This document shows, piece after piece, positions 6,474-51,339 of a stretch of 64,000 bases of DNA (positions are counted from its first letter, which is position 1; every line of letters starts with the position of its first letter). The stretch spans positions 9,106,216-9,170,215 of the forward strand of contig JAJEKV010000005.1 in the NCBI GenBank assembly GCA_021234155.1. Direction: 5' to 3'. Source of the DNA: Isoetes taiwanensis. Its lineage: Eukaryota; Streptophyta; Lycopodiopsida; Isoetales; Isoetaceae. Below the pieces are notes generated by a model. The model was not told where the DNA came from and did no database searches. It saw nothing but the letters and a program-made list of their open reading frames with translations. A program made the position numbers and the translations under genes.

Positions 6474-6516
6474 ACAGAGTTACATTTGAAATGGGAGTGT
6501 TGCACAACTCCTGTTC
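6474..6516 (+). repeat. left terminal inverted repeat of the large transposon
   Basis: Starts ACAGAGTTACA and contains GAAATGGGAG, a short imperfect stem (GGGAGTGTTGCACAACTCC) and then CAAAGATTCC. The right end has the same order of blocks in inverse orientation. Confidence 0.6.
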
Positions 6517-7447
6517 AAAGATTCCCTGTAAAAAACACAACATGATCCTGAAAGTGATCTTTTTGGGCTGAGGTTAAGATTCTTCAATAGTTCAAAAATT
6601 TTTTACCCTAATTTTGGCACCTCATGCAATGTAAATGCAAATTTTGTAAATGCAATGTAAATCTATCAAAGTATTACAAAAAAAACCATCAATTGTGGGA
6701 TGAAAAAAAATATATATTTCGTTTATATTGGTAACACATCAAATTTAAGTGCTGTTGTAATGCTAACAATAATTTATTAATCAATTTTGAAGTCAAAGGT
6801 CCAAGATATACTCGTCATCACCCTTCTTGCTTGTCTCAGGCTCTTTTGTTGTCGCCTGCTGCTTGTCCGGTGAAGTAACCCGTTCTTCTTCAGCTTTGTC
6901 TTCTGGAATAAAAACTGGAGCAACTTCGTTTAGCTCTACAAAAACAACCTCTTCGTCAACATAGCTCGTGAGAGGTGGCTGAATCTCTGATGATGTCATC
7001 TTGGCATAATCACCGCCTAGCTCTTGATTCTCATCAGGAAGGTTTGGTAAGACAACCAATCTCATCTTAATGAAGTTCACAGCCTCCTTGTCTATGTCCA
7101 CATCCACACAATTTCGGCCCTTCTTGAGTGCACATGCAATGGTGGTACCAGAGCCAGAGAACACATCAAGCACCCAATCTCCTGGACGAGAAAACATGTC
7201 AATGAGATGGTTGATGAGTTTTTGGAGCTTCTAATAGTGGTTCACAATTCTGCCATGTGCACTCGGGTCTTGCAGCTTCTGTAATACTGCAAGAAACTCT
7301 AAAACATTTGAGAAGTCAGTGCAGGCAGAAGTGTTGAAATGGTCCATGGTCATCTTGCCATCGAAGCTCCAGTAACCAACGTATAGATATTCCACTTTGC
7401 TTAACAGCCTGGGGCCTCCACCATGATAATTTATATTCGTTTTGTAC

Positions 7448-7519
7448 CTTCAAGAGAAAGGTCAATGGTCAACAACAAAAGAAAATAACAAGTAGTGTAT
7501 TCCAGAATACGAAGCATAC
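7448..7519 (-). other. 72-nt intron containing the element palindrome
   Basis: Removing this GT-AG interval joins ENLVW to YKTNINYHGGG in frame. The intron includes GTATTCCAGAATAC at 7,497-7,510, the same palindrome found in the arrays at 8.2 and 10.4 kb. Confidence 0.75.
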
Positions 7520-8234
7520 CAGACTAAGTTCTCGTAACTAGCTTGGTCAGGAGATCCAAAGTGATTTTTGAAGCTGGCTTCGACAAGACCAGCTTGCATA
7601 CTGGAGTGAAATACCACTAACCGCCAGTGTCTAGCTGTAGTGATCTTCATTAATCCTTTTATGAATTCATTGAAATCCGCATGCTTAAAAGGGATGTCAT
7701 CATATCGACTGTCTTTAATCTTGAAGCCGTAGGGAATGTCGTCAATGATTAGCGTGAAATCTTGTGGCTTCATACTCGCTACAAGCTTGGTGCAGTCCCC
7801 ATGTATAATTGAGTAAAGATTGTTTTGGTCGAATAATGTAAATGTTTCATAGTCCGTTTCCACGACCTCTACAGTCCGACGCTCTGCCAAAGATCTTTCT
7901 TCCCGAGCAAGCATTACCAGGTGCATGAAACCTTCTGGTAGGTCCTTGTTTTTCTTCTTACTCTGCAAATCCACAAAATAATTAGAACATTTACAAATCT
8001 ACGCTACCTAAACGCCCAATGCAGGCTTACCCAGCCTTCAAAATTTGGAGCGTACTGAACAATTCTCTCGTCAGATGTAGCAATAGGATAAAGATCCTTG
8101 CATCGTTCCCATGTTTGCACATTCAATTGTTCCATCAAACATGTTTGACATGTAATGACGTTCTTCTGGCTGCAACATCCAAACCAAGAATTACATCAGG
8201 GACACGTAACAAAACAACACCACATCAAACAAGA

Positions 8235-8436
8235 AAAGCCAAAGTGTATTCCGGAATACACTTTGGCTTTACACGTTAACCGAACTGTATTCTGGAATAC
8301 ACTTTGGCTTTACACGTTAGCCAAATTGTATTCCGGAATACAGTTTGGCTTTACTGTTAAAGCCAAAGTGTATTTCGGAATACACTTTGGCTTTACTGTT
8401 TAAGCCAAAGTGTATTATGGAATACACGTTGGCTTT
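8235..8436. repeat. intronic array of GTATTCCGGAATAC palindromes
   Basis: Five palindromic units of about 35 bp lie within 200 bp. The unit reads AAAGCCAAAGTG, then TATTCCGGAATA, then CACTTTGGCTTT. The first unit (8,235-8,270) is a perfect 36-bp palindrome; the others, at 8,286, 8,319, 8,359 and 8,402, have one to a few changes. They lie in the intron before the exon encoding SQKNVITCQTC in the ParB-methyltransferase gene. Plausible roles are protein binding sites, methylation targets or cruciforms; none is proven. Confidence 0.9.
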
Positions 8437-10366
8437 GCTTCAGTTTCTCAGCGTTGCAGACGGATTTGTAAGGCTAAAGTTTTTGGACTGTACAGAGCGT
8501 TGACATAAAAGACTAAACTTTCTAAAAGACTTACTTGTGCAACTCCTTCGACATTTATTCTAAAGTAAATTCCTTGTCCACAACCTTTTGCAGTAACATT
8601 TCTAACAAGGGAATGTCTGTAAATCCTTGAAGCTCTCTCCAGACAGTGATAGTCATTTCTTTTTTAGGAACATCGGATCCTTTTTTCTTGTCTGTCACTT
8701 TGCCCTTACTTTTGAGGTCTCCGCGCTCGAACATATTAAAAATTTCGTTTTGCAAATCCTATATCTAAACATGATAACAAGTGGCGTTAGTACAATGTAT
8801 TTTGGAATAGAATGCTGGGACTAGCTACTTGAACTAAAATGCGGACATACCCTTCCTTCTCTAAAAGCAAGCTGGAACCAGTTGTCATGGCCAATAAGAG
8901 AGGTCCTTTTGTTGTCCTCATCGTACTTTAGACAACACTCTATGGCACACGCCTCTTTGAGCTCCAAGGAGTATGCTGGCTTCTTTAGGTCATCGCCATA
9001 TTTTTCTTTAAATATAAGGAATTCTCTGTGCATAAACCTTATTTTGTCCACAAAGCTCATCTTCAATTTGTACTCGTTGTCCGCATTGTGGGTGTTGGCA
9101 ACGATCTTAGCTTCTTTGTCGGTAAGGCCACAATATACTTTGCCGCACAGAACCGCCGATACCTCGCGTTGAACTTCTCCTTGTACAGTTGCCTCCTTGC
9201 TTTAAAGCTGTGGTTCCCCCCTAACACATAATGCGTGTAGGTATCCGCATTTTCCTTGTCATACTGGGCGGGGTCAAGGCACTGTTGCCTGTCAACTAGC
9301 ACAACTATAGAAGCTACATGAGCATACAGATTGCTCCTAATCCTGTCCTTCAAGTTCCTTAAATGATCTGCATAAATCTTCCGAACTTGAAGAGGTCTCT
9401 CATCGTTTTCGTTCTTTGGTGGTAGCTTCATTGATGTTACTTGCAAGTATATCACACCTTGCACAAGCGTTTCCCTGTTTATTGCTGCCATTTTTTCTGA
9501 GGTCTTGTCGACCTTCTTTTCTTTAATAGCCACACCAGGGGCTTTGTTTTTTCCTCTTGCCTTCTTTTGTTTTGGTTCTTCTTCTGGCTCTTCCGATATC
9601 ACTAATGCCTGAGTTCTCTTCTTAGGCTATTTAGCAGCAACAGTGTTTCGTGGCACTTGCCTTCGTGGCTCTTGCTCCACAAAATCCTCTCTGTTCCCTT
9701 CAACATCTGATGGGCTTCTAGTGCCTTCGTCTTGTTCTTCCTCTGTGTCACTGATTGTAAAGTCTTCACTAAACGGAGAACTTACAGTGTGTACAATGGA
9801 CAACAGTGTTTGTTTGTTAATATAGTGTGCCACATACTTGTAAAGTGGAGTTGGTTGTACCTTAGTCAACCTCAACATAGCCTCATCAAGAACAAACATC
9901 CCTTGTGATGTGTTAAATGACAGCCTACCGCGCTGTCCAGACTGCCCAGCAACACAATCAACACTCTTTATATGGCCCATGCACTGGAATTCGACGTCGT
10001 CGTAACGTTTCTGTCAGACGTGCAAGAATGTGAGTGTGGAGTACTTGCCCCCATGGCCTCTAGTAAAGAACCACTGAGCTTGGAAACATTCGTATTGGTT
10101 CAGCTGGGCCACCCACATTCTTCGGCGGCTGGTGCTTCTTTGTGACAATCTTCACGATCTTCTTAGCAGGCTGCTTCTGGGCAGGGTTTTGGCTGTAGCA
10201 ATGGTTTCGTTAGCAAACAAAAACTAGAGCAGGATAATCAGCTAAAGTAACAAAACGGGGAAAAAACAAGCGTTTCGACACTTAAAACAAGGAAAAACAT
10301 TGCAATCCTTGACTTCTAAAGCCCTAAAAGTAAGCAAATACACTTTTGCAAGACAAAGTAGAGCAA

Positions 10367-11066
10367 CATGTATTCCCGAATACACTTTTCCTTAGACTGT
10401 TAAGCCAAAATGTATTCCGGAATACACCTTGGCTTTCACTGTTAAGCCAAAGTGTATTCCGGAATACACTTTGGCTTTCACTGTTAAGCCATAGTGTATT
10501 CCAGAATATACTTTGGCTTTTACTGTTAAGCCAAAGTGTATTCCGGAATACACTTTGGTTGACGGGATTGCCAAAGTCCAGAATACACTTTAGTTTGACG
10601 GGATTGCCAAAGTATATTCCCGAATACACTTCGGCTTTCGTTGGGAGGCAAAAGTGTATTCCGGAATACACTTTGGCTTACCAATGAGAGCCGAAATGTA
10701 TTCAGGAATACACTAGGCTAGACAGAAGGACAGTACGTCTAACTTAAATGATTAAAAGCATGTACAAATGACAAGTCGCACTAACCTGTCCATGGTATGC
10801 CTATGCAAATCGGAATACAGCTCGAGCGAAAATTTACGGAGGCACTGGGTCTGGCGACTGGAGCTGCGGAAGTCGAATAGAAAAGTGAGGGCGCATTTTT
10901 TTCCTTTTAAAGTTACGCTGACACCTTTGTCCAAGTTCTATGTGAAATCGAATACAGTACGTTGTACTGGCCAATCGTTGTGTATTCCAGAATACATTTG
11001 CAGTTTCTTTTTGTCTTCTGCTTTTCCTTCCCTTCGCTGTACAACTCGATTTGTATTCCCGAATAG
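10367..11066. promoter_or_regulatory. palindrome array in the divergent intergenic region
   Basis: Between the starts of the two divergent element genes lie about ten copies of the palindrome with core GTATTCCGGAATAC, dense at 10,367-10,712 and sparser at 10,980 and 11,050. The arms are mostly AAGCCAAAGT / ACTTTGGCTT. Central changes are often paired or keep the GTAT...ATAC frame. Position and repetition suggest a shared regulatory or transposase-binding region. The frames of about 60-115 codons that run through it are products of the repeats. Confidence 0.8.
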
Positions 11067-11126
11067 AAAATGCACACCGGTTCCGTGTATTACTTACGTC
11101 TAACAAATGTTTTGTAGCTTCGTAAG

Positions 11127-12197
11127 ATGGTTAACCGCGTGCTGAACAAGCTACTACCACCTTTTGTAGTATCTAGTTTGTCCAGTTCGGAGGGAGCCCT
11201 GGTCCAGGACGTTGTTTGTCATGATACCACATCTTCTCCATCTCGTTCCTCAGCAACCTCCTCGTTGCTCATCTTCGACACTCCGAGTCCAGAAACAAAC
11301 AGATTGCCACAACCCTTCCAGCCGTCATCAAGTCCTGCACAAAACAGACTGCCCCCTCCATTCATTCCATCACCACCTGTACGTAACATGCTTCCACTAC
11401 CCTTTGTTCCTCCCCCCCAAAGCGCACAGGCTCCACATGCAAAGGTTACTCGGAACAGGCTCCACCCACCCTTTGTAGTATCTCCATCACCATAGAAGTG
11501 CAAGGTCTGCTGCATGGTCTGAAGAATACGAGATCCACCACAACTTCTCTCAATATGACTTCAACACAAATGAGGATGATGTTGCAGCTTCAACACCTCG
11601 ACACACAAATATTGTGACACATGGGTTTGCAGAGTTTCAAAGTGTAGTAAGAGATATGTTTGCAAGAACTCCTCAACAAGATGCTACCACAACATTTGCT
11701 ACCACAACAGATTATGGCCCATCTCCTACATTTAACACCGTGCCTCCGACTTTTCTGGGAACAGCTTCACGAGGCCTCTTTCCCTCTAGAAACACACCAG
11801 TGAGGGTAGAGGAGGCCACTCCAAGAGTAGAACTCTCGTCCGAAGATGAAGGCAACAATGACCAACGAGATTACATGTTCTCCAGCCAAACTACCCAGAA
11901 ATTCAGGGTGGATTATGGGTTGAGAGCATGTTCATCTGTGAGAAGGAAAAACCTTATGGACGAGAACAAAATGAGGAGAATTCTAAGAACTACTAGATGC
12001 TGCTCATTGGGTTGCATCACCAAATTGAACATGGCTAAACTTCGTGAAATTAGAAACAGGTACAGTTCGATGACATTATCAGATCAAAATGCCTACTTGG
12101 CATACAATATAAGGCCAGACTGCAAAACATTCTTGCACTACATTAGAGGTGAACAAGTGTGCCAGAAATATTTTATGGTTGTTCACCGTCTAGGGTC
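11127..12197 (+). pseudogene. DUF7869-like element protein, 5' part
   Basis: Begins at ATG 11,127 (MVNRVLNKLLPPFVVSSLSS). A Ser/Pro-rich N-terminus repeats the motif NRLPPPF about four times. After a one-base frameshift near 11,491 the frame continues as RSARSAAWSEEYE into the segment 11,530-12,197, which contains CCSLGCITKLNMAKLREIRN and GEQVCQKYFMVVHRLGS, the type of N-terminal region seen before DUF7869. The frame is cut at 12,198 by a hAT-type MITE and resumes exactly at 34,017. It is divergent from the ParB-methyltransferase gene and shares its palindrome-rich upstream region. It is the candidate transposase of the element. Confidence 0.75.
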
Positions 12198-13353
12198 CAT
12201 GGAATAATTTAAGGGCTAAACTTAGCTATTTGGCATTTTTTTAGCACATTTTCAAAAAAAATTGGCTAAAATAAATGGAAAAAATTGGAAAAAAAATAAT
12301 AATTTTAGCTTAACTTTTTTCGGGACTGCACCAACCCTGGAGCTCTTTAGCCAAACGCTAGAAAGTAGGAGCGTGAAATTTTCTAGTGTTTAGCTAAACC
12401 ATAGAAACTTTTAGATTGAATTTCGGGCCTGTTTATCTAACATTATTGTAGTTTATATGAAATATATGACTAGTAGTGTAGTTTCTAGCATTATGAATTA
12501 ATTTGAGTCCTAGACTTTACTAGTTAGCATTATTTTAGAATGTTTTCACAAAGAAAATGACTAAAATAAGTGGAATATATTGAAAAAAAGTATAGTAATT
12601 TGGTTTAACATTTTCTGTTGGACACACCGTAGAAATTTTTTGGATGATGTTTGATGAGAGGAAAAATTTATAGAGTTTAGCTAAACCACAGAAAGTTTTG
12701 GGATTAATATCGAGCAAGTTTAGCTAAAGTCATTCTGGCTAATGTTTGGGGTCTGGGTTCGGGAACTCCTGGAAGACAGCCCTCTGTGAGGACCCGTGGA
12801 TCTAACAGGAGAGTCCGGGGGACTATGTCACGCGGGATTTGCAAGAAGAGAACAAGAAGAAGAAAACAGAACAAAAAGGAACAATGAGATGAAAATGATA
12901 AGCTTCCTTGATATCAATGACTAGTAAGGGTGCCCAGCGTTGCTGGGCATAAGTTCCTATAAATGTTTTGGTTCCTTTTTTCAAATTTGGTCATTCCAAG
13001 AACGTCGAAGATGGAAGATGTGGCATGATGATGTACGGTATTCAGTTGCATGTGTTCAAGACAGTAAGAATGTTAGTCTAGAGGATAGCAATTGTATGTG
13101 TTCAAGACAATAAGAATGTTAGTCTCTAGATGTGGTATATGCAGGTTGTGTGCCAATATTGACCCTTAAGTCTCTAGATGGGGTATACGTAGGTTGTCTG
13201 CCAATATTGACTCTTAATTTATGTAGGTACATATGTCAATGCCTTTAAGCAGTAATGAAGGGCTGTAGATATCAATGTTCAAGCTAGAGGAATTAATCAC
13301 GTATATTGACCACTAAGTATTTATTTTTATTTCAAGTCGTTTTTCCATTATCT

Positions 13354-13536
13354 TATGTCTTTTTATTTCAAGCATTTTTTTCGTTATCCTCTTATGTTAT
13401 GTGAGATTTTCTAGGGAATAACATGTATCGTTATCCTTATGTTATGTGAGATTTTCTAGGGAATAACCATGTTATTCCCTAGAAAATCTCACATAACATA
13501 AGGATAACGAAAAAATGACTTGAAATAAAAAGACAT
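13354..13536. repeat. long hairpin inside Helitron 1
   Basis: Arms of 39 bp (13,429-13,467 and 13,471-13,509) are perfect inverted copies around a 3-base loop, containing TTATCCTTATGTTATGTGAG. An extra direct copy of the arm is at 13,382-13,422. Outer arms (ATGTCTTTTTATTTCAAG at 13,354 and its complement near 13,519-13,536) extend the symmetry. Confidence 0.9.
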
Positions 13537-15167
13537 ATACATTAACCATTTAGATTTTCTAGGGAATAATAGGCAGGCAATGTTAAAAATCTATTAGTTG
13601 TTTGTGTTAGTTGTTTGTAAACAATTTATACCACAGCCTAGAAGTGTGAGAAATTTGTAAAGGAAATTTGTAGTTAAAATTGTAAAGGAACTTCGTGCGA
13701 CGTTAAAATATTTATCTTATCTATTTAATATTTACTTTAGTGGATGATGTTGAGGTGCAAAGGCGTTTCCATCTGCTGGAGTCATCCCGTCCCTTACAAT
13801 TGTCAAGGGATGGCATGCAATCTTCAAGGAATGGCATATTATGGCACTGCTTTTGGCAGCATTTGACGAAAATAAGGCCATCTCAGACAGAGGCGTTTCA
13901 TTTTGTCCTCTGTTGCTTCTCTGTGAGCATATTCAAGCCAGAAAAAATGCAGTAGAAGTCGCCAACAACAGTTCAAGTGAGGTTTTTCTTTGCTACTTTT
14001 TATATCACGTGTTTCTTCCTTGACGCAAATCTATATGATGAGATCAGGCAGAGGAAAAGTAGCGTAAAAAACTTCTTTTAAAGGAGTGGTTTTGGAGCAT
14101 CTATGTAGGGTTTTTCTCCCGTTCATGGTTCATGTTCACGACAATCTTGGCTGGTCTTGAGTTGGTTGTTCTCCAAAACAACAACCAACCGTTACAAAAC
14201 ACTAACCTCAAGATATGTACTTGTGCTTGCCGACTTTGAATTGCGGGGCAATAATAAATTTGCTATAAGGATAGCATACTTCACTAATCAATCCCTAAGG
14301 TTAAGCCCTGATAATTTGAATGCCTTGCAAAACTTATTACCTTTGCCAAAACGTGCATCACAATATTTGAATTGAGAGGATCTTCTACCAGTAGATCATG
14401 CTGGTCAATTGTCCATCCACAATGGAAGTAGTTATCACCTGAAAATCATATAAACATGCAATTTTAGTTAGAGCTCTGCTTTAATCGCAGAGGAGTCATG
14501 ATTAATCAAACAACCGGAAGTTGGAACAGAAGAAATATTCGTAGAATCGCACCACCATAGAGTTTTCTATTTTCATTGCCCTTTTTACAGAGAAATGTAA
14601 GAAACTATAAACCATTGAGCTTTTAAGATTTGAATCCCATACACAAATACTTGATAATTTTTCAAAGTTTAACATCTTCTACAAAGAATGGCTTCAACAG
14701 CTTTTGACCGGCATAGCAAACAACACTCATTTCAGCTCTCAAGATACAATAGAACTCATCACCAAGCTATATTTTATAAGTTAAGGCATGTCAAATTTAA
14801 AAAGTTGCCTTAGTTGAACTACATTATCCATGCATTTCACAGAGTAGCTCATTCATCCCAAATGTAAGGCCATGTGCAAAACGCCTCATTCGCTACAAAA
14901 TTCTCGTAAATATATCTTAATGTTCTCCATTTGCCATTCGACAAAGCTGATTATATGAATAAGCATAAACCCTCGTGATCCAAGCATCTAAAGGAGGAAA
15001 AGAGATAGAAATTTGAAACAATGCACACTTACCAAGTTGTCTCCCTAATTGGTACAATGATCTGCTTCAGAGTATGATTGCCATCTAAAAACGCATCGCG
15101 ACTTCCACATATTGTATGAATGGTCCTTGAGCCTCGCTTAACATTGCCTGTCGGTTGTGCCCATGCC

Positions 15168-16120
15168 CTATTGGCAATTCTTGGATGTGGTAAATGAGAA
15201 CATCTCGATGCTCAAACAAAGGCTCACCCTCCAACACTCCTGCAAAATCCATATAGCGATATTCGCATTACTAAAATGAATGCTATAAGAGCTACTTCTC
15301 AAGAATTTACCAGTTGCATGACTCATAAGATATTTTTCGCCATATTCTGGATCTGTCACAATCAATATTGAGATAGAATACATTGTGATTTCACCTGCTT
15401 TGTCAATTCCATATCCCCTCGCATTTACAACAATCAAGAAAGCTCTTAGATTACAACGGCCTTTGTAGCAAATGTATTTTATCCTAAAACAAACAATACC
15501 ACATTATATGCAATGTAATAATCGAGGCTACCCGAACGTTTGACTTGATCTCAACAAATATGCAAAGACATACTGGTTGCATATAAGAACAGATTGATAC
15601 AAATATTGATGGCAAGCCATATGGGTTTAAGAAGAATAGCCTAGAAACTTAGCAAAGATGACCATCCGTCTCACCATGACCATCCGGCAAGATTACCTTA
15701 AGCACACAACGAACTCTCGTGTCTCATATAGCTCACCATTTACTGCTGAAGGATTTGATGTTTGGACGGGAGCAAGCGATCCAAGCCCGGAAAAGAAAAT
15801 ATACAATAATGAAGGAGCTCACATCGTTTGTTGAAGAGGATTGTTCCTTTGAAGACTACAAAAACGCCCACCCGCTTTCGCCATAAGAAGTGACGGCCAT
15901 AGCCATAACGCAGAGCTCTAACTTGACATGACCGATAACAACCTGAAAGCAGCATTAGGATTTGGAGTAAGCCCGAAACCAATGGTCTTTTTTCACAGAG
16001 AAAAATTATAGCAGGACCAAGAGCAGGAGCACCTTCGTAGATCGCCATGGACATATTGCAACGGAAGAGGAAGAGATAAAATTTTGGGAGCACCTCAAAG
16101 CCCGGCCGCTTGCTCGCCAT
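15168..16120 (-). other. possible captured gene exons in Helitron 1
   Basis: Two minus-strand frames look protein-like: 16,120-15,740 (starts MASKRPGFEVLPKFYLFLFR) and 15,437-15,168 (contains RGYGIDKAGEITMYSISILI). They could be exons of a host gene picked up by the Helitron. I do not recognise the protein, and splice sites linking the two were not established. Confidence 0.3.
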
Positions 16121-16705
16121 AAAGAAACCCTAGAAAGGTAAGTTTGGAAGAAATAAGCCTAATGGTAAAAAATGCAGTCGAGCCAAAAAAAAAAGACAAA
16201 AATTTGGACCCTTCGATATAGCTGTGTCATTTGTGGCCCTAGGATCTAGGGCTGGATCCAAATCCGAGAATTACAAAGAAAACATTATAATATAGGATGA
16301 ACATACATGAGCTCTCGCAATCGAGAGAAAACTGAAATGAGACAAGACTCAAAACTCATCTAGAACTCATGTGTGAGCTCTAGTCATATATATAGTACAA
16401 TGGCCTTTGGCCCAATATAGACACTCTGACTGATCTCGGTGCCGACTCCTGGAAGGAGGCCTGATTTGCGGAATGTTGGCGGTGCCTCTTGAAGTGCCTA
16501 GAATCATCTTGTGCCGACGCTGGTGGTGACAGTCGTCACTTGTCTGAAGCGGGCGCTTAGGCGCAGTTTTTGACCGCGTGGGTCTTTTTGCTTGGTCTTC
16601 TCACCGAGCCTTTGATGGCTGACCCGGGGCTGATCGTGGATCCTTGAGCTTGACCTGGTCCGTCGTATGCATGAATAGTCCTGTACCAGGAGGCACAGGA
16701 CTAAC

Positions 16706-19700: not shown

Positions 19701-19728
19701 AGATTTGCAGAAAAGAACAGTGATTCAA
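16706..19728 (-). pseudogene. extra 3' ORF of the Gypsy element (unknown, coiled-coil)
   Basis: Reads from ATG near 19,695 (MAAPKFSTLQATAPRDPALF) to about 17,260. The first ~200 residues are globular (VGPNREVAERQKLYEFSQME, VDGTTISLTQHLISEVFHIP), like the plant transposon ORF domains found beside retroelements. Then come a Ser/Pro/His-rich linker, a Gln/Leu/Lys-rich coiled-coil stretch near 18,610-18,160 and a C-terminal globular part (18,059-17,259, with HFQGDPTLQWLLQDNNPYLA). It is broken by frameshifts near 18,780 and 18,610 and a stop near 18,157. It has the same sense as pol, downstream of integrase. Function unknown; it may be an envelope-position or structural accessory protein. Confidence 0.6.
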
Positions 19729-24957: not shown

Positions 24958-24979
24958 TATATATATAAAAGTCTTATAT

Positions 24980-28674: not shown

Positions 28675-28684
28675 GCCCGGTGGA

Positions 28685-29960: not shown

Positions 29961-30130
29961 TATTCGGGTAGGATGACAGAGGCCGACTCAGCAGTGGAGC
30001 CCGAACTTGATAGATATTCCGAAGCTTCCTCAAAACTGCGGCTCGGAGAGAGAGGGTTCAGCATGTTCAACAGAAATGATCCTGCCTGTTTCCAAGTCCA
30101 TGGTGGCATTGAGGTGACCATCAGTGATGA

Positions 30131-30967: not shown

Positions 30968-30999
30968 ACCAACCCAATTGGATGGCTGAACTGGAGGAT

Positions 31000-33355
31000 T
31001 TAGTGCCTGAAAAATTTCTTCCTGTGCTTGTTGATCCAGCTGAGGTGGATTTGCAGGAGCTGGTTGATATCTTGATTGCTGAGGCGCTCTTGGTGGCTTC
31101 TTAAGAACGGGTCTCGGGCCTTGTTTGCCATTAGCAATCCAGAGTTGGTAAGCCGTGAGGCGGACCGATGTGGTCTGATTGGTGCCAGGAAGCTGTACCT
31201 GAACTTGTGGAAGTTGAGGACACGCCGTGGTGGTATGACCCCATTCTTGACAGTGGTAACACTGAGCTTTTGAAGGATCAAAAGGAGGACGTGGGTTTGG
31301 TCCCCGTTGTTGCTCCTGTTGCTGATAGAGTTGATTCGGTTGCGCCTGGTGGCTGCTGATAGTGCGATCATGGAATAATTTAAGGGCTAAACTTAGCTAT
31401 TTGGCGATTTTTTAACACATTTTCAAAAAAAATTGGCTAAAGTAAATGGAAAAAATTGGGAAAAAAATTATAATTTTAGCTTAACTTTTTTCGGAACTGC
31501 ACCAACCCTGAAGCTCTTTAGCCAAATGCTAGAAAGTAAGAGAGTGAAATTTTGTATTGTTTGGCTAAACCATAGAAACTTTTAGAATGAATTTCGGACT
31601 AGTTTAGCTAACATCATTCTAGTTTATATGAAATATATGATTAGTAGTTTAGTTTCTAGCATTATGAATTAATTTGAGTCCTAGACTTTGCTAGTTAGCA
31701 TTATTTTAAAATGTTTTCACAAAGAAAATGACTAAAATAAGTGGATTATATTGAAAACAAGTATAGTAATTTGGCTTAATATTTTCTGTTTGCCACACCA
31801 TAGAAATTTTTGGGATGATGTTTGGGTTAGTTTAGCTAAACACTAGAAAGTATGAGAGAAAAATGTGTAGTGTTTAGCTAAACCACAGAAAGTTTTGGGA
31901 TTAATATCGAGCAAGTTTAGCTAAAGTCATTCTGGCTAATAAGAAATATGCGATTAGTAATTTATTCCCTGAGTGCGATTGTTGCTGAGGTGTTATTTGC
32001 ACTTGATAAACGAGTTTGTTGCGGAAAGGTGTGGGATGAGTGCGAGTGCACTCTTCCGTGGCATGATTGCACATGTTGCATCGCTTGCAATGAGGCGGGC
32101 CATTGATGGAGTTGCACTCATTTGCCAAATGGCCTTGGTATTTGCAAATATAGCACCAGATCTGACTGCGCTGTGGATTGGCGTGTTGAGGCTGGACAGC
32201 CGTCTGTGGAACCATGACAGGTGGAATGAAAGGGAGCTCTTGAAGAGCCACGCCCCGGGAGGAAACATTGACTGAGTGATTGACAAGGTCGATAGCCTGC
32301 TCCAAAGTCTTGGGACGCAGGTATTCAGTCATGAGTCGAATAGCTGGAGGAAGTCCTTGGAGAAACCAGACCAAAATCTGGCTCTGTGTTGGGTACTCCT
32401 TGAGTTTACTTAGCAGAATGTGAAGTCGATCCGCAAAATCCCTGGCAGACTCCGTGGGCTCTTGTTGAAGTTCATTGAGTTGCTTGAGATGAAGTTGATC
32501 ATCATCCGTGGTCCCATAATGAGAAAGAAAAGCAGTCCTCATTTCAGACCAATCTTGTTTCCAGTGGCTTTTGTTGGACATGAGCCATTGATGAGGAGAG
32601 CCACGGAGGGTGGTAGAAAAGATGTGGAATTTTAGTTGAGGTTGCGCATGACCATTTAGGACAGCTAGAGCCTCAAATTCTTCCATGTGGGCCTGAGCAC
32701 TTTGGTCTAAAGGTTTGCCTTTCGTGTTGCCAAAGGTGGGATATGTCAGTTTCAAGGTCTGAAAGGTAGATGTGAAAGTGCTGGGCTGGACAGGAACAGT
32801 ATAGTGATGATATTGAGGTTGAGTTGGAGGTGGCATGGTGCCTGAAGGACCCTGATGAAGGGGTGACTGTGGTTGAGGAACTGAAGGTGCCTGAGCATTG
32901 GTTTTGAGATCGGTAAGGTTGTAAACAGGAAGTGCAGTGGGAAATGTAGGGAAAGGGAATTCCTGGGTAGGCGCAAAAGAGACTTGTGGATATCCCTGCC
33001 CACCCGGGGGAGATGATGGTTGTGAAGGAAGAGGCGTATGGCCTGAAGAGTGATGGATGTAGGTGTGTTCAGGTGTATGAAAGTAAGGTTGAGAAGGTTG
33101 AGCCTGATAGGGCTCCTGATAGTGATGAGGTGACTGAGGCTGTGAGCAATGTTTGCACGCTTGGGGCGGGGAACTGGGACGAGACAGGACCCGAGGGGTG
33201 GGTGGCACTGACTGAGCCCTAGACCGAAGATGGCCTCCCTCAATGTCATAAGCAGATCCATACATGTCGCGAACAGTTTCCCGACGCTGATGGCGCTCCA
33301 AGCGAGATGCCGTCTGAGAAAGGAGTTCTTCTGGCGTGAAATTTTGGACAGACAT
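31000..33355 (-). pseudogene. Gypsy gag, interrupted by a MITE
   Basis: Starts at ATG 33,355 (MSVQNFTPEELLSQTASRLE). After a Pro/Gln-rich region of about 200 residues comes a retrotransposon gag domain (KFHIFSTTLRGSPHQWLMSN, ESARDFADRLHILLSKLKEY). A CCHC zinc knuckle CYICKYQGHLANEC lies near 32,150 and a second, CYHCQEWGHTTTAC, near 31,250 beyond MITE 2. Removing the MITE and one target copy rejoins the Gln-rich linker, but a one-base frameshift is still needed to reach the second knuckle. Gag builds the virus-like particle and binds the RNA. Confidence 0.9.
31369..31971 (+). mobile_element. hAT-type MITE 2 in Gypsy gag
   Basis: 603 bp, CATGGAATAATTTAAGGGC to TTTATTCCCTG, flanked by a perfect 8-bp duplication AGTGCGAT (31,361-31,368 and 31,972-31,979). 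Closely similar along its length to MITE 1. No coding region. Confidence 0.95.
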
Positions 33356-33402
33356 GGCGACAGAAGAAATGAGGATCGAATCAGACCCGGCAGCGGCGAC
33401 AG

Positions 33403-33979
33403 TGTTTGGGGTCTGGGTTCGGGAACTCCTGGAAGACAGCCCTCTGTGAGGACCCGTGGATCTAACAGGAGAGTCCGGGGGACTATGTCACGCGGGATTT
33501 GCAAGAAGAGAACAAGAAGAAGAAAACAGAACAAAAAGGAACAATGAGAGGAAAATGATAAGCTTCCTTGATATCAATGATGAACATACATGAGCTCTCG
33601 CAATTGAGAGAAAACTGAAATGAGACAAGACTCAAAACTCATCTAGAACTCATGTGTGAGCTCTAGTCATATATATAGTACAATGGCCTTTGGCCCAATA
33701 TAGACACTCTGACTGATCTTGGTGCCGACTCCTGGAAGGAGGCCTGATTTGCAGGAATGTTGGCGGTGCCTCTTGAAGTGCCTAGAATCATGCTGACGCT
33801 GACGCGGGTGGTGACAGACCGTCACTTGTCTGAGCGGCGCCTCTTAGACGCAGGCTTTGACTGCGTGGTCTGCTGCTTGGTCCTTTGATGGCTGACCCGT
33901 GGCTAACTATGGATCCTTGAGCTTGACCTGGTCCGTCGTATGCATGAATAGTCCTGTACCAGGAGGCACAGGACTAACA
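33403..33979 (-). repeat. Gypsy 5' LTR
   Basis: 577 bp, TG...CA ends, directly followed by the GCTAA target duplication. Nearly identical to the rejoined 3' LTR. As the intact copy it reveals the Helitron 1 insertion point. Confidence 0.92.
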
Positions 33980-34016
33980 GCTAATAAGAAATATGCGATT
34001 AGTAATTTATTCCCTG

Positions 34017-35231
34017 CTAGGGTCCACTAGAATGTCTCGAATACACCGAAGGTTGGATAAAGTCCCTGCAATTGATGATCACTGCGGGCCAGGAAGAGTT
34101 GTAATAATGCACGCCTTGAGTGTTGTAGCTTGGATGGAGAAATATTTTAGAGGGACATGTGAAAAGCTGCCAAACAGTAAAATGTATCATTTGACAGACA
34201 ACATCACAAAAAAAGATGTCTTCAACCAGTACAAAGAAACATGCACTAAGTCTCAACACATCTCTTACTCTCACTTCACTAGACTGTGGAAAGTTCAGTT
34301 TGGTCTTGTGAAAATTCCCCGAAAACATAGGATGTCTGTGTGCTCAACATGTGCAGAATTGAAGAGCCAAAAAGAAACTGCAAAGACAGAGGTTGAAAAA
34401 AGTAAGTTGAAGTTCTTCATTCTCTAACTTGTTTCAAAGAATTGTTTTGACCTGAATCCTTGAACAGATATCGTTAACAATTGCTTGCTAGACACCGTGA
34501 CCAACAAGCAGCCGAGAGAAGGAAGCTTGCTAAGCACAGGAAAAAAGCTCTTGAACGTCCACTGCAGTATATGTTTGTTGTGATTGATGGGATGGATCAG
34601 AAAAAGACTACTATTCCTCATTTCTTGAATATTCTTAAAGATGTGCCAGAGGAATGCTTTGTTAAGGTCCACCTTGTTGGAGCTATGGTCTTCAAAGGAA
34701 GTCTAAAGTGCAATGTCTTTTTGACGTATCCTAACTTGCATGGTGACCCGAACCTCACTGTTACAATTCTTAATAAGGTGCTTTGTGAGCAAGAGCAATT
34801 ACCTCCAGTGCTCTATTTGCAGCTTGACAACACTACCAGGGAGAACAAGAATCAAACACTCTTTGCTTACTGTGCCATGCTAGTGGAGCTAGGGATCTTT
34901 AAAAAAGTCAAGCTTGGATTCTTACTTGTAGGGCACACTCATGATCAGATAGACCAGATGTTCAGCAGATTTTCCGTTCGTCTAAGAAGGAAGAAGGCTT
35001 TTTGTCTTCCTACTTTGGTTCGAATCATTGAAGACTCTTACACTCCCATGCCAGTGGTTGAGCTTCTAGTGGAGACTGCTGACTTTAGGGAATTTATTTT
35101 CTCTCGACGTGGCTCTAGAGAACAAGTTGTGAACAAGTTGAACGATATTACGTTTCAACACCACATCAAGTTTTACTTGAAGGATGGACAGAGTTTTTTT
35201 ACAAGGGAAGAAATACACCACTACTAAAGAC
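34017..35231 (+). pseudogene. DUF7869-like element protein, central part
   Basis: Resumes the frame broken at 12,197: RLGSTRMSRIHRRLDKVPAI, then VVAWMEKYFRGTCEKLPNS and CSTCAELKSQKET (paired cysteines). A likely intron is 34,400-34,466 (GTAAG...ACAG); the downstream exon has a stop near 34,473 and the phase does not fit perfectly. The core reads VVIDGMDQKKTTIPHF, LYLQLDNTTRENKNQTLFAY and LLVGHTHDQIDQMFSRFS, the hallmark of DUF7869. The regularly spaced Asp residues (IDGMD, QLDN, HDQID) suggest an RNase-H-like nuclease fold, which is inference. The frame stops at about 35,227, where another transposon begins. Confidence 0.8.
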
Positions 35232-35258
35232 TAGAGTCCACCCATTAGGGCGGATTTG

Positions 35259-35650
35259 GGGTCTCAAAATGGCCTCCTATCAGCCATTCCACGTCATATT
35301 TCCGCTCCTTTTTTCCCATGCCACCTAGGATACCAAACTCTCATAATTACAGATTTGCTTGGAATATTCTTCCGGAATAAGGGGGATTGCACATTCATGG
35401 CGCCATATGTATTTAATTCTGTTGGTTGTCAGACGGACTGATGCAACACGTGGCGCTTCTAAAATGCCACTTGCATTATAGCATACCGGCAACTCATGAC
35501 GGTGTCTCTTGGGTTGTCAGATACCAAGCGTGCGCGTCACCGCCTTCTACATTTCAAAATTTGAATGTGTAGGTTGAAGCTTTGTATCAGATCAGACTTT
35601 CATTTCGAGGCGCTGCCGCTGCGCCTTAACCGATCTTCACTTCATCCTAA
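35259..35650 (+). repeat. subterminal repeat, copy 1
   Basis: About 390 bp highly similar to 37,304-37,690, from GGTCTCAAAATGGCCTCCTA through CTTGGAATATTC to TTTCATTTCGAGGCGCTGC. Confidence 0.88.
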
Positions 35651-36059
35651 TACAGGCTTCCCGCCCCCTACAATTCGAAATTTGAATTTGCTTAATGTAT
35701 AAAAGCATGGATTGTAGGAGAATGGACTTTTCGATTTTCATATGCACGTTGCAAATTTCAAAAAACGGTTAGTATGGACGTTCGGCTCACACGAAGCCGG
35801 TTGTGTTGGGGCATAAAAATACCACACCTTCATTTCACAAATGCGATCTACACAAAGATGGAAGTTGCTTGTTGTCAAATTAAACTTAAACACAAGTGAG
35901 GTCGGCACTTATGTGGTTTTCTCGAGGAGGGTTTGGAGTGTTTTTTTTTTAAATCCCAATTATCGACATAGTGTGACGTAGCATCTTGGTATTAAATAGT
36001 ATGTTAAATTCGAATTATATCGATGTTCATTTTTAGGTTAAACTCAAATCATATAGGTT

Positions 36060-36167
36060 TAGGAATAAGGTTAAAAAAGGAAGATATTGGATATTTAGGA
36101 ATAAGGTTAAAAAAGGAAGATATTGGATATTTAGGAATAAGGTTAAAAAAGGAAGATATTGGATATG
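36060..36167 (+). repeat. three 36-bp tandem repeats
   Basis: Three consecutive copies of a unit containing AGGAATAAGGTTAAAAAAGG and ATATTGGATATTT. They lie about 170 bp upstream of the acidic-protein start and could be promoter elements. Confidence 0.92.
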
Positions 36168-36340
36168 GCTCAAATTTCGAGATATGCACATAATGGCATG
36201 TAATGATGGTTGATAGGACTGAAATACGAATCATTTCTACGAGCCTATATCTATTCCAGCCTAGATTGGCGCCCATTCTCCCCCCAATCTCCGCCCAATC
36301 TTCGCTAGATCCTCCGCCCAATTTCTCTAGTCCATCACCA

Positions 36341-36772
36341 TGAAGAGATCAGCTACGGAAGAGCCGTAAGTGTCCTCCAAGAGGCGCCTATTACGGCTGG
36401 AAGAGGTGTTCCCTCCGCAGTTCCCTCCGCTGCCCACGGTTCTTGCTCTGAATGCCTCTGATTCCTCTGATTCCTCTGATTCCTCTGACGAGGAATCAGA
36501 GAATGAGGAATCAGAGGAAATTTCGGAGCAGGAGTTCATCAAAGGTGTTCTTGAAGGATGTATAGGAGATTCTTCAGAGAATGAGTGGTCTACCGAAGGA
36601 GAAGAAGCCGAAGATGATGAAGAAGATGAAGAAGTTGAAGACGAATCCGCTGACTTCGAGGAGCTCATGGCGTTAGTTCATGGTACATGCATGTTTTCTT
36701 TCTTTTCTTAAGCATTCAACTAACAGTTATTTCTTATTTTTTTTTGCAGATGGTGAAGCAGATGAATGAAAT
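36341..36772 (+). pseudogene. acidic Ser/Glu/Asp-rich protein, two exons
   Basis: ATG at 36,341 reads MKRSATEEP, then one TAA stop, then VSSKRRLLRLEEVFPPQFPP and a long acidic tract (SDSSDSSDSSDEESENEESE; EEAEDDEEDEEVEDESADFE). An intron GTACATG...TTTGCAG (about 36,681-36,750) joins LVH to DGEADE and a stop. The size (about 130 residues), basic N-terminus and acid tail resemble small nuclear acidic proteins or histone chaperone tails, but no family is assigned. It shares a transposon with an H3-like relic. Confidence 0.6.
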
Positions 36773-37078
36773 TTGTTAGGGCAGAGCACCTCTTATTTTT
36801 TTTCCTTGTTCTTAGCCTCCAGCTTGCCTCCAGCTTCTTACCATATGACTGCAAGCCTCCGGGCTTTTTTGTTGTGAATATTTGAAGCCTCCGGGCATTT
36901 AATTTACAAAATGATGTTCTGATGTAAAGCCATACGGCCATAAAAAATTTTGAATGTAAAAAGTTTTTGTTTCTAATTCCATTTGAATACCTAACTTGTT
37001 TTTTTACTGTACATGTGTTACCACTCTTAAGTACATAAGTCATTATCCCTTTTCAAAGAGCATATTATTTTTCAAGAA

Positions 37079-37147
37079 GGATCACACCAAGCGAATACTA
37101 CATATGCAACAAAAATGGAACACACTAAATTCGCATCGTGTGATCCA
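37079..37147. repeat. short foldback, copy 1
   Basis: About 68 bp, from GGATCACACCAAGCG to CGCATCGTGTGATCC, with a loop including ATGCAACAAAAA. Related to copies at 38,704 and 40,857. Confidence 0.8.
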
Positions 37148-37303
37148 CTTTCTTAATTGTTGTCAAATTAAAATTAAACACAAGTCCCTCATCAATAGTC
37201 TCCCATTTGCATATAAAATATCTATCATTCCAAGTTATATTTTGTTTTATGAACTGAAATGGCCTTCTATCAGCCATTCCACGTCATATTTCCGCTCCTT
37301 GGG

Positions 37304-37690
37304 ATTTGGGGTCTCAAAATGGCCTCCTATCCGCCATTCCACGTCATATTTCCGCTCTTTTTTCCCGTCAGATTTGCTTGGAATATTCTCCCAGAATAAG
37401 GGGGATCGCACATTTATGGCGCCATATGTATTTAATTCTGTTGGTTGTCAGACAGATTGACGCAACACGTGGCGCTTCTAAAAAGCCACTTGCATTATAG
37501 CATACCGGCAACTCATGACGGTGTCTCTTGGTTTGTCAGATACCAAGCATGCGCATCACCGATTCTTGTCTTGCCCTATTTTCATTTAGAGTCCATGGCC
37601 ATACAAGCTTCCCGCCTTCTACATTTCAAAATTTGAATGTGTAGGTTGAAGCTTTGTATCAGACTTTCGTTTCGAGGCGCTGCGATTGCG
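37304..37690 (+). repeat. subterminal repeat, copy 2
   Basis: Internal direct copy of the sequence next to the left terminus (35,259-35,650). A shorter partial third copy precedes it at about 37,255-37,300. Confidence 0.88.
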
Positions 37691-38703
37691 CCTTAAAAGT
37701 TCGTAACCGGGATCTTTACTTCATCCCAATACAGGCCAGGAAAAATTTTAAGGGACCTATAATTTTGTATAAGTATAATGAATTGGCCATTCCTTGTAAA
37801 ATATGCCCCCAGAAGTGTAGCCTGAACTGGCCATTTTTTCTATTTTTTTCTAATGTGGCAGCAACCCAATTGGCGATTTTTGAACAAAATATCTATTAAT
37901 GTGTAGCTCAAATGGCAATTTTTAGCTAGATTCTTATTAGATATAGTGCTAGTTGCCCAAACATAAAGAAGTCGCTACCCTATATAAATGTGTTTAAGTT
38001 ACATATTGTATGAGTTTGAATTCATACCCCATGTATTTCAATAATGCACAGATTGCTGGTAGGGAGAATCGGAAATCGGATGCCGGAGTCTTCGTAAAGA
38101 GGATTAAAAAGTGCCTCGACATTTGATTTTCCAAAAGAGCGAGATTATTCTTAGTTGGTAGATATATTTAGAAAAAAAAATTTCTAATAATGTTGGCCCC
38201 TCATAAGTGACGAATTTATGAGGGGGCCTCTGAATAAGTTAAGATTTGGCAAATCTAAGGCATTATAGGATTTGGCCAAGTGGCCTAAATGGCTATTCCA
38301 TAAGCATACCTAGTTCTCGCTTGGGACTAAATTGGCCCCAAAGTCGATACCACTCTAATTAGCAAACTTCTAATTGGCCATTTTAATGTCATAATAGGCA
38401 ATAAAGTGCCGCGAAATGGCGAATCTGCAGGTAATCCAAGGGTAAGGCATCCTACTCAAGCCGACCGTCGCATTTTGTCTGAACCTGTAATTTGTGGCCA
38501 AATGGCCCGCCGGGGCCACTAAAAGTTTCGCTGATACAGGCTTCCCGCCCCCCTACAATTCGAATTTTGAATTTGCAAGAAAGCAAGAAGATGTTTAGGA
38601 GCAGTAAGGCGCTGTCACTTCTGAACTCAAGTAGCCATTGTCGATTATGAAAGGGGACACAGCCGTTGTGGGGAGATTTGTCCGTACATTTTAGGGTTAG
38701 GGT

Positions 38704-38772
38704 TGGATCACACGACGCGAAGACTACTATGTGCAACAAAAAAGCACAATACTTGCTGCGCGTCGTGTGATC
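38704..38772. repeat. short foldback, copy 2
   Basis: Arms GGATCACACGACGCG and CGCGTCGTGTGATCC, with a loop including ATGTGCAACAAAAAAG. A perfect 15-bp stem. Confidence 0.88.
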
Positions 38773-38904
38773 CTCACGTATAACATTAAAAAAAAATACA
38801 AAGTGCGAAGCTAGGCTTCTAAGAAAGAAATGGACTAAGAGATTAAGCTTATAAAGCCATTACATTAAGAAATATTACACATATAAAAAAAACACAAAGG
38901 CACT

Positions 38905-39270
38905 TCACGGCCTTTTTTCTGGGGGGTCTTTCTTCTTGTTGTATTCAGCCATAAAATTTTGACCATAGTACTCGGGATCCCTTATGCATAAGACGAGGCG
39001 CATGTCCTTGGGCATGATGAATACCCGCTTGGCATGTATTGCTTGCAAAAAGCATGCGAGTCCTCGAACAGACCGACACCAAGTGCTTCCGAAGCCATTT
39101 GAAGAGCATTTAAGGCACCGCTTGAATTTCCAGAATCGGTATGATGTATCGCACCACACTCTTGCGAATCTCTTTCACGAGCCCGGCAAATGGGAGACGC
39201 TTTAATGACCATCTCGCTCTTCCGATACTTCTTAATCTCGCTAAGCTTTTAATGCCGCTTCGCTCTTCCG
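38905..39270 (-). pseudogene. histone H3-like relic inside a DNA transposon
   Basis: Successive minus-strand frames match the H3 histone fold in order: LSEIKKYRKSEMVIKA (H3 LREIRKYQKSTELLIRK), LPFAGLVKEI (LPFQRLVREI), LNALQMASEALGVGLFEDSH (VMALQEASEAYLVGLFED) and QAIHAKRVFIMPKDMRLVL (CAIHAKRVTIMPKDIQLAR). The last part has a non-canonical tail, RDPEYYGQNFMAEYNKKKDP, then a stop at 38,905. At least three frame changes make it non-functional here. The N-terminal tail is not recognisable; upstream sequence is Gly/Arg-rich. The divergence could mean a variant or centromeric-type H3 or long decay. It was probably captured by the element. Confidence 0.8.
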
Positions 39271-39683
39271 CCTCGCCCACTACCCTCACCCACCCCAAAT
39301 TTGGAGCTGTTGCTCTACCGACTCTTCCTACCGCCTCTCACCCCAACATTTGCGGGGCCGCCTCTACCACTCTTCCCGACCTCCTCCCACATTTCTAGTC
39401 GCCTTCCCTTTCCTTGGGCCTCCTCCTTTGATTTGAAGGTTCTCGGGCATCCACGGGGAGGAGCAGGAGGAGCAAGAAGAGCAAGAAGAGGCGGCTGCCC
39501 AATAATTAATCCGCGCTATATTCTCGTTTCCGGTCTCTCACATTTTCATCCTCCGCCTCCGAACCGGAGTGCACCTCCCCTACTTACTCCTCGAGATGCT
39601 TCTCCCCTCACGCCCCCTCATGAGGATTTCTTTTAAGGGTCTTCATTAGGCATGGTCGGAGGAGGAGAATCTCTATCGAGACT

Positions 39684-41474
39684 TCATTTCGGATGAAGGA
39701 AGCGGACTAATGTAATCACCGCCTTACACCACTGGATGGGTCCTTGCGGTTTGCTTAGTTCTTGCCATGGCTTCTCAAATGATGGCGCTTTTATACTACG
39801 AACACTCGACAAAAATAGACAACCGGCAAGAGATAAATAGTAAAAAATGTGGTTAAAGTAAAATATGATGGTAACGCTTTTTAAATAATTGTACGGAATC
39901 CTAAAAAATATCGGACAAAATACGAACCCTAAAAAAACATCGGACAAAAACACAAATAAAAAAACCGAGATTCAAAGCGCTTAGGCGATAGACAATTTCT
40001 TGTTGATCGCGAACTCACTAAACTTTACATTTTCCTCTTGCCCAGTAACCAACCCTAATGCCATCAATAAAATAATGGAAGTCGTCCGAGAATCTCCTCT
40101 GTCTCCATTAGCACTCTTAGCTCGATAATGGCCATTAAAACTTTCCATGGTGGCTGTATAAATGACTTTCTCCCTCTCCATACTCGAATATCCACCGCAG
40201 ACGGAGTGTCCGTTATGGTCCTCAAACGGCTCCCAAAAAGTTGTGCAGCCTCTCTTTTTTCGTTTCCTTCGTTCTAGTTGACAATTAACGATAAATATTG
40301 TTTTGGAAGAAAGTATCTAAACTTAAAGGAGGACTTTACTACGCGGACCTCTTAGTTGACCGGATGATTCGTGGAATCGAACATCCCAGGTCGGAACCAA
40401 AAATAAGCCATCTACAAAATCGGCAGGGGGGAGAAAACACGTATATGTCTTCGAAGCTTTTCAAACTTCATCGCCATCCGAATATGTTAGCAAATACCTC
40501 AAACGGTGTGAAGATTTTGAAACTCATCCTCACGCCTCCGCTTTTGACATTCCCGCTTGCACCTCGTCGACCATGCATTTCTTCATTGCAATTACATTGT
40601 TCTCATTAGTCCTGCGGGCTTACAAAGTTCACTTAAAGGGGGCAATTCAACCGCCCTCAAGCTCGGTTTCCTGACCTTTACGTCCATGGCATCCATACCT
40701 TGGAAAAGGACAATTCCGATGTCTATGTGATACACGACAAGTACACTACTAATACTTTGGTGGGAATGACATCCACGACGTCCCCGATAAACGTAAACCC
40801 GCACAATAAATTTGTTTGTAAACACGTGTCAACGAAAAGAAATGAAAAGATAAGGAGATCACACGACGCCGAAACTATCTCTACGCGAGCTAAGTAGGCG
40901 GACAGCTAGCTTCAAGGTCGTGTGATCCGATTAAGGTGGTTACCATTTGCGTGCAATTTTGGGAAGCCGTTTTTGGTGGAGATTAGCTCTTTGGCCATAT
41001 CGGAAGGGGGTATATGCATGTCGTATTGTTATACTTTCCACTTTTCGGCGCTAGAATTCAACTTGAACTCTTTTATCCTACCTATCCAATGTGTCCGCGA
41101 CGCCCGATCGCCTTTGTCGCTTAACTCTATGCTCAGCCCCTCGTTGATGGCGTAATACTCACCCACGAACCTATTGAGACAAAACCTCCCACTTCTTGAC
41201 CTTGGGAGTTACGTAAATGGGGCAAGAACACGTAAATTACAGGAGACATGGATTGCGGATGAGGAGGAAGGCGAAAGGATGCACGAGAGGCTTTGAGTGA
41301 CAAGATCAGAAGTTTGGCGCCAAAATTTGACAAGGGAGTTGGTGACGCTGACAGTAGGCGGTCAAAGTCACCAATATTTTGGGCGGCGAAGCGACTCCCG
41401 GAAAATACGCCCATTAAAATGGTTGCAATCAAAGCGCAGGCATCCCCTATGAAAATACGCCATGTGGATGCCAA
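39684..41474 (-). other. unidentified coding-like remnants in the 35.2-41.6 kb element
   Basis: Minus-strand frames such as MESFNGHYRAKSANGDRGDS (40,150) and YAINEGLSIELSDKGDRASR / THWIGRIKEFKLNSSAEKWK (41,150-41,020) look protein-like but switch frame often. The latter loosely resembles a BAH-type segment. No domain is assigned with confidence. Confidence 0.3.
40857..40929. repeat. short foldback, copy 3
   Basis: Begins AGATCACACGACGCCG and ends GGTCGTGTGATCC, with about a 45-bp loop. Same family as copies at 37,079 and 38,704. Confidence 0.8.
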
Positions 41475-41626
41475 GTAAGCCTGCTCATCCTTCTACCTGC
41501 CAAGTAATACTGACTTTCGTAAAAAAAGGCGCAAACCTGATTGGTCCTGGCGAATCTGACGTGGAAATCTTTAACCCAAGATAAGGGCCATTTTCAGACC
41601 CCAAATCTGCCCTAATGAGAGGGGTT

Positions 41627-42484
41627 GCGCTTCCTTAAGTACATTCCTGACACTTGCTTGGTAGAACATGCTGAGCAGCTTCCTCTCAAAAACCCAAAAG
41701 AGTCAAAGCAGTAGAAAGCAGAAAAGCACCCCGGGTAACTCCTTAAAAGCAATTGAAAGTGGAATTTCTGCGGGCTTTAAGTACTTCTCAGAAGAAGACC
41801 AAATGTGGTGGAGAAGCTTCTTTGCTGAACAAACGATTGTGAATCAAAACTTAGCTCTAAGGCAAATGGAGGAAGCTTTCCATTGGCCTAATGCCATCCA
41901 CGAACTCCAGAACCAGGCAGGCCCGAGCAATGCTACAGTAGCACCAGTAGCACCACCAGTACAGGAAGACGAGGATCGGGTCATGTACCTCGGGCCAAGA
42001 CGCAAAAATGAGCCTGCAGGTAATATCACAGAAATTACCAAAGGTGAGGACGATGATAAAGGGCGACCTTTCTGGATAGCAAAAGTACTTGACACAGTCA
42101 AAGAGGAAGGCTTGATGACTAAACTCAAGATTCACTGGATGGCTACACGTTCAGAAAATGCTTTTGAAGGCAAATATGATTTAGAAATGAAAAGTCAAGG
42201 CAAGGGGAAAAAACTCAAGAGAGTGGGTAATAGGGATGAGCTAGACATACGCAAAGTGAGTATTCTATGTTATGAATTTACTTAAGAAGGCATGTAGCTA
42301 CGAGGAAGAAGATGAAGAAGAGGGTGGTAATGCTTCAGCCTCTGTTGACAGTGACGAGGAAGATAACTCAAGCACTTCTTCAAGCGACAGCGAAAGAAGC
42401 GAAGGTGACGAAGATGGCATAAATGAGGATGAAGATGTGTTGGATCCCTCTGTGATCACTCCTCATACTTTTGTACATAACTAA
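41627..42484 (+). pseudogene. DUF7869-like element protein, C-terminal part
   Basis: Downstream of the inserted element the protein continues: LRFLKYIPDTCLVEHAEQLP, then a stop and frame change near 41,712, then SLKAIESGISAGFKYFSEED and PFWIAKVLDTVKEEGLMTKL (a BAH-like C-terminal segment typical of this family). Near 42,272 a one-base shift leads into KKACSYEEEDEEEGGNASAS and an acidic Ser-rich tail ending FVHN at 42,484. The 3' end of the frame lies about 370 bp inside the right terminus. Confidence 0.7.
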
Positions 42485-42852
42485 GTCTTGTAAAAAGACT
42501 GTAAATTTTGTATGTGAATGTGAAGATTTTGTCTTCAATTTTCGAAAATACTACAATTTCAGTTGTAAACTTCACTTAAAGTTTTGATTAAAATATATGT
42601 TCCCTTAAATTAGAGGTTCTCTCTAAAAACATACTTCATCCAAATTCTTATTGCTAGAAAAGTGTCACTTTGAAATAGCTAATTCTCTCATTGCACAACA
42701 AAATTAGTGATTTTGGGGGGGTCAAGATACAGTTTTATGTCTTTTTTTTTAACCTCATTTTAGCCCCTTTTTTGAAAAAAAAAGGAATCTTCGAGGAATA
42801 TTCCTTTTGCTCCCGTTTCAACGATCCCCTCTCGTTTCTATTGCAACTCTGT
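42485..42852 (+). repeat. 3' untranslated end and right terminus of the large transposon
   Basis: AT-rich sequence with a G-run and poly-T stretches, then the stem GGAATCTTCGAGGAATATTCC and GCTCCCGTTTCAAC, ending TGCAACTCTGT. The last about 24 bp are the inverse of the left terminus. The GGAATCTT...GATTCC motif also occurs beside the right end of the 19,781-25,940 element. Confidence 0.6.
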
Positions 42853-51300: not shown

Positions 51301-51339
51301 GTGATGTTGCATGTGCCACTTTTGATGTTGAATATCTGA

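Follow-up and report, generated by a model that had tools for sequence, protein, structure and literature searches.

A probable, decayed DNA transposon with a ParB-like methyltransferase gene, a DUF7869 gene and a family of candidate recognition palindromes

The closest described counterpart of the locus presented here is Sola1-1_Ec32, a 21.5-kb giant DNA transposon of Ectocarpus, in which a 1,104-residue protein combining a ParB-like part with an N4/N6 amino-methyltransferase is encoded on the strand opposite the transposase (PMC12477816). The same source cites green and red algal transposons with an accessory protein of the ParB-methyltransferase type (its refs 50 and 51, the latter being Petroll 2025), and such transposon-borne enzymes, described for the brown alga and cited for the red and green ones, are candidates for self-marking, with no target site named in the passages concerned (PMC12477816). 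Fusions of a ParB-CTPase fold to an N6_N4-methyltransferase are frequent in phages, according to the relevant parts of PMC12704722. For the pairing of a ParB-methyltransferase with a transposon, the literature searched, judged by titles and the starts of abstracts, gave only these two sources and PMC8885841 as relevant. Transposon-borne ParB-methyltransferases are, as far as those accounts extend, already known; what differs here, in a 64,000-nucleotide window comprising the whole stretch of DNA analysed, is a family of palindromes, a partner gene named DUF7869 and the host, probably a non-seed plant to judge from the plants named among the DUF7869 relatives. The above reference 50, on algal transposons, is reportedly a 2011 chapter from the Iyer group.

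Once two later inserts are left out, about 8.2 kb of element DNA remain at 6473-42853 (Table 1), with the methyltransferase gene on the minus strand and the DUF7869 gene on the plus strand adjoining and divergent. The initial annotation, which had described two divergent genes between inverted termini and a DNA transposon bringing its own DNA methyltransferase, is borne out as to the divergence (PF01555 on the minus strand, PF25273 on the plus strand), and its overall reading is still the best one, as an RNase H fold of the transposase/integrase-like kind is now predicted for the DUF7869 partner. Both genes are broken, which makes activity of this copy hardly possible, and we consider it probable, at somewhat better than even odds, that the locus is what remains of a cut-and-paste DNA transposon, an old and dead copy carrying a methyltransferase as accessory gene. 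The comparison with DIRS elements that had also been drawn is a poor one: nine scanned ORF pieces, accounting for the greater part of the element's inferred coding sequence, contain neither reverse transcriptase nor tyrosine recombinase, and a DIRS or other retroelement is rejected.

Table 1. Coordinates of the features within the window.
Feature	Position	Strand	Evidence or remark
Direct repeat, outside element	5134..5972		87% identical to 43859-44692; probably belongs to an LTR pair
Left terminal inverted repeat	6473..6497	+	20/25 bases common to right end; likely, not proven
ParB-like / amino-methyltransferase gene, broken	6793..10793	-	splice sites read from sequence; P0121 matches; PF01555
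Inferred exons of methyltransferase gene	10786-10793, 8851-10192, 8535-8758, 8031-8169, 7520-7962, 6793-7447	-	
Beta-class amino-methyltransferase domain	6796..7962	-	motif IV (DIPY) precedes motif I (DVFSGSGTT)
Isolated palindrome core, 1 mismatch	7497..7510		inferred intron; flanks unrelated
Array of five palindromes, period about 42 bp	8236..8445		inferred intron of methyltransferase gene
ParB-like domain with GGNHS motif	9150..9470	-	P0121 43%; phage ParB-like proteins (weak)
Array of eight palindromes, period about 42 bp	10360..10715		inferred first intron of methyltransferase gene
Isolated palindrome core, 1 mismatch	10982-10995		between divergent genes; flanks unrelated
Isolated palindrome core, 2 mismatches	11053-11066		between divergent genes; flanks unrelated
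DUF7869 gene, 5' part	11479..12199	+	P0003 64% over 11713-12198; homology supported from 11713
Later insert(s) in DUF7869 gene, not element	12200..34026		contains Gypsy-type gag and RNase H; each edge has AGGGTCCA
DUF7869 gene, middle part with DUF7869 domain	34027..35234	+	PF25273; P0003 76%, P0001 86%
Later insert in DUF7869 gene, not element	about 35235..41618		inverted ends seen by eye; boundaries approximate
DUF7869 gene, 3' part, frames broken	41619..42484	+	P0001, three frames, up to 42481
Right terminal inverted repeat	42829..42853	-	pairs with left end; likely, not proven
Direct repeat, second copy, outside element	43859..44692		87% to 5134-5972

Two relatives, P0003 and P0001, each on a 3,468-base contig that is probably the same one, match the DUF7869 gene on both sides of the inserts: P0003 at 11713-12198 and 34017-34406, flanking the first, and P0001 at 34478-35200, 41619-41711, 41704-42282 and 42269-42481, flanking the second, with the 3′ frames overlapping at their edges. 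Both inserts thus fell into the DUF7869 gene and interrupt it, and reverse transcriptase-type domains are present in an insert and in the right flank. The direct repeats outside the element are probably an old LTR pair, and taken as such they place the element probably within a retrotransposon.

The DUF7869 hallmarks read earlier from the sequence are matched by PF25273 above its curated cut-off (34478-35224 on the plus strand, E 7.2e-52, 176.2 bits vs. a cut-off of 26), and relatives among the matches listed include some from Riccia, Adiantum, Chara and several animals. The name DUF7869 was not found in the literature searched, and the family profile retrieved only unrelated proteins, with E above 0.1, from among solved structures. 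A widespread, unnamed family gains a predicted transposase-like fold: the predicted RNase H-like domain carries a conserved Asp, and the protein would most likely be the DD(D/E) transposase of the element. Sola transposons encode a DDD transposase and generate 4-bp target duplications. The conserved Asp would suit such an enzyme, and the element may simply be a Sola1 transposon like that of Ectocarpus, with DUF7869 as the Sola1 transposase, an explanation that we take seriously while placing it a little short of even odds. It draws on the same opposite-strand gene pair as described for Sola1-1_Ec32, which also supplies a precedent where the initial annotation had known of no named superfamily with this pair (PMC12477816). 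Set against it, a 4-bp duplication is not readable at the ends, the best register being AACA/AATA with three of four bases in agreement, and Sola1 is likened here by description, not by sequence.

The second gene of the pair owes its exon-intron structure to prediction; exon 1 and the beginning of exon 2 were placed by visual inspection. Its last exon matches PF01555 at 6796-7230 on the minus strand (E 6e-14, 53 bits vs. a cut-off of 26.7), which upholds the earlier identification of an amino-methyltransferase; on that strand motif IV lies at about 7735 and motif I at about 7170, an order that fits the beta class, and the domain aligns with CcrM (6pbd) at 1e-6. The relative P0121 matches the gene in three frames over 9389-8534. 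The matches at 9389-9177 and 9138-8848 share one inferred exon in different frames, indicating a frame break there, and the third corresponds to the exon that follows, where an in-frame stop occurs near 8555. A further stop near 7231 falls within the methyltransferase domain, where the CcrM alignment continues across it, and two more lie upstream in a stretch without P0121 support. Searches with the whole methyltransferase query (residues 165-800) returned no homologue among 7,994 scored candidates, perhaps since such genes are broken up by introns in contigs, and no relatives were found in the viral or genome contigs searched. The read-through protein gave 176 weak phage records and, among the 20 matches listed, only the methyltransferase part was involved.

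The earlier claim of a ParB-like domain is backed by one relative and, weakly, by ParB-like proteins of phages, and finds no counterpart among profile models, as the exon matches none in Pfam, PHROGs or NCBIfam. With an exon-sized query, P0121 (43% identity, 80% coverage) was the sole match at E ≤1 among 299 candidates; it touches DUF6551 over the GGNHS region at 0.0078, below the cut-off. Solved structures gave nothing significant for the exon and nothing for P0121, whose own structure model, built on three sequences, is poor with a pLDDT of 38.4, and a plasmid search with the ParB piece found none. In a tblastn search of the phage collection with the P0121 domain (E up to 10), 56 records were recovered, all weak, with a best E of 3; all of the 30 matches listed are annotated as ParB-like and are mostly mycobacteriophages with the same match, amounting to few independent cases. 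Alignment by hhalign of the two transposon sequences with two phage sequences, themselves without a Pfam match, gave P 1.6e-5 and a probability of 79 over 56 columns. The GNH(S/T) motif that the transposon and the phage proteins have in common lacks the arginine included in a typical ParB box. With reserve, we read the exon as encoding a ParB-like domain.

The element further harbours a family of palindromes, GTATTCCGGAATAC, of which 16 copies with up to 2 mismatches occur, all of them in the element; the inserts and flanks, 55.8 kb of the window, contain none at that tolerance, and neither do 200 Markov sequences modelled on 6473-12191 (expectation 0.0). The half-site GTATTC or GAATAC is likewise concentrated in the element, at 4.05 per kb vs. 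0.22-0.63 per kb elsewhere. All 16 palindromes lie outside the inferred exons, though exons fill 2,814 of the 4,325 bases at 6793-11117; exon edges in this count were set partly by eye and some are a few bases off, with no site affected. Thirteen form the two arrays, and the remaining three are isolated, with the core kept and the surroundings not. The arrays alone might be a satellite, whereas an isolated core that has been kept argues for a recognised site.

We propose that the palindromes are candidate recognition sites of the element's own enzyme. The divergent gene would encode an accessory protein in which a ParB-like module is fused to an amino-methyltransferase of bacterial type (6mA or 4mC). 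Most likely this protein would recognise GTATTCCGGAATAC both within the introns of its gene and in the intergenic region and would methylate element DNA there, and this methylation would let the element regulate or protect itself. We infer the recognition, the methylation and its purpose, the ParB-methyltransferase being cast as reader of the palindromes because of their company in the same element. As a whole, the most far-reaching reading, to which we give a probability of about 0.3, would be a DNA transposon lineage, probably in non-seed plants, that uses a ParB-like methyltransferase and some 16 parS-like palindromes, located only in its own introns and intergenic region, to tag itself with 6mA or 4mC, and that thereby governs its genes or transposition, or evades host silencing; the self-recognition part taken by itself stands at about the same value. 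About equally probable, in our view, is that the same transposon and gene pair instead contain an intronic satellite or hairpin array unrelated to the methyltransferase, with the enzyme working at other genomic places, for instance to counter silencing by the host. Thirteen of 16 sites in two arrays with common flanks are what satellite expansion would give, but the three outside the arrays, two of them intergenic and the other in an inferred intron of its own, keep the core amid unrelated flanks where the Markov model expects none.

That the two genes belong to a single element depends in part on its termini, likely at 6473 and 42853 as judged from the sequence. When 5980-6790 is compared with the complement of 42485-43858, 6474/42852 and 6473/42853 are the best 24-base pairs at 19/24, and a second common block, about TC-AAGATTCC-T, follows in the same order at both ends of an end-anchored alignment. 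The identity and block order of the initial annotation hold, and their significance is weaker than they suggest: none of 200,000 random 24-base pairs drawn from the window reaches 19/24, while a pair of at least 19/24 arises in 12 of 100 Markov shuffles of the region between flanking repeats and genes. When the ends are aligned locally without anchoring, only a low-complexity match at chance level emerges (score 17, the 95% point for 300 shuffles being 22). Support for the terminal match therefore comes from the end-anchored alignment and the ungapped count over 24 bases, and no convincing target duplication was found in nine boundary and duplication registers. These results are what would be expected if there were no single element but two mobile or host genes side by side by chance, with termini matched by chance. 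We nonetheless consider that improbable, since not only is the terminal pair the best in the flanks and located just outside both genes, but the palindromes span the methyltransferase gene and the intergenic region with none beyond, and an identical opposite-strand architecture is published, as described there, for Ectocarpus Sola1-1_Ec32 (PMC12477816).

Least probable, on grounds of position, is that the palindromes are binding sites of the DUF7869 transposase: many short sites inside a transposon fit such use in general, multiple short subterminal sites serving the transposase in CACTA and hAT elements, but here the distance to the left end is 1.0 to 4.6 kb and that to the right end, inserts left out, at least about 3.6 kb, with neither terminus having a site nearby.

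On the proposed self-recognition reading, the GTATTCCGGAATAC family inside the element offers a specific, testable candidate target for a transposon-borne ParB-methyltransferase. The bdelloid rotifer N4CMT is likewise a bacterial-type beta amino-methyltransferase in a eukaryote, but as a host gene fused to a chromodomain, and the word ParB is absent from the text of that source as available (PMC8885841). Phage fusions have the same pair of domains (PMC12704722), and the GNH(T/S) motif region recurs in two ParB-like proteins of actinophages, whereas the gene described here has inferred introns and stands beside a DUF7869 gene. Compared by description, Sola1-1_Ec32 comes closest in that both elements place a methyltransferase gene opposite the transposase or DUF7869 gene; the relevant passages on it speak of no palindrome arrays such as those seen here, and its transposase is named Sola1 and its host is a brown alga, where the present element has DUF7869 and probably a non-seed plant as host (PMC12477816).

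The two direct repeats that flank the transposon, one on each side and 87% identical, are probably LTRs: an older retrotransposon would then have been the site where the transposon landed. Within the transposon's DUF7869 gene, the minus strand of the first insert carries a Gypsy-type gag and RT-RNase H and the insert contains several repeated blocks, which together suggest nested insertions; the same interval holds clustered self-complementary repeats with a 52-bp period and cores TATAAATTTATA. The second insert has ends that are inverted as judged by eye, and the copies of its inner direct repeat agree at 75%. ORFs of the Copia-type element to the right match gag_pre-integrs, rve and RVT_2, and at the left a 192-codon ORF on the opposite strand overlaps the TGGGAT tandem repeat.

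Repeats and insertions in and around the probable transposon
Feature	Position	Boundaries
TGGGAT tandem repeat	651-776	
Overlapping ORF	472-1050	
Flanking direct repeats	5134-5972, 43859-44692	
First insert	12200-34026	
Self-complementary repeats	25119-25321	
Second insert	35235-41618	
Inner direct repeat	35252-35657, 37302-37736	
Copia-type element	49831-54985	94% direct repeats
Copia-type ORFs	51715-54511	

In the public proteins P0025 (Adiantum) and P0080 (Riccia), DUF7869 occurs with PF00665 (integrase core domain) and with PF00759 (named cellulase), joins that perhaps reflect annotation spanning transposon edges.
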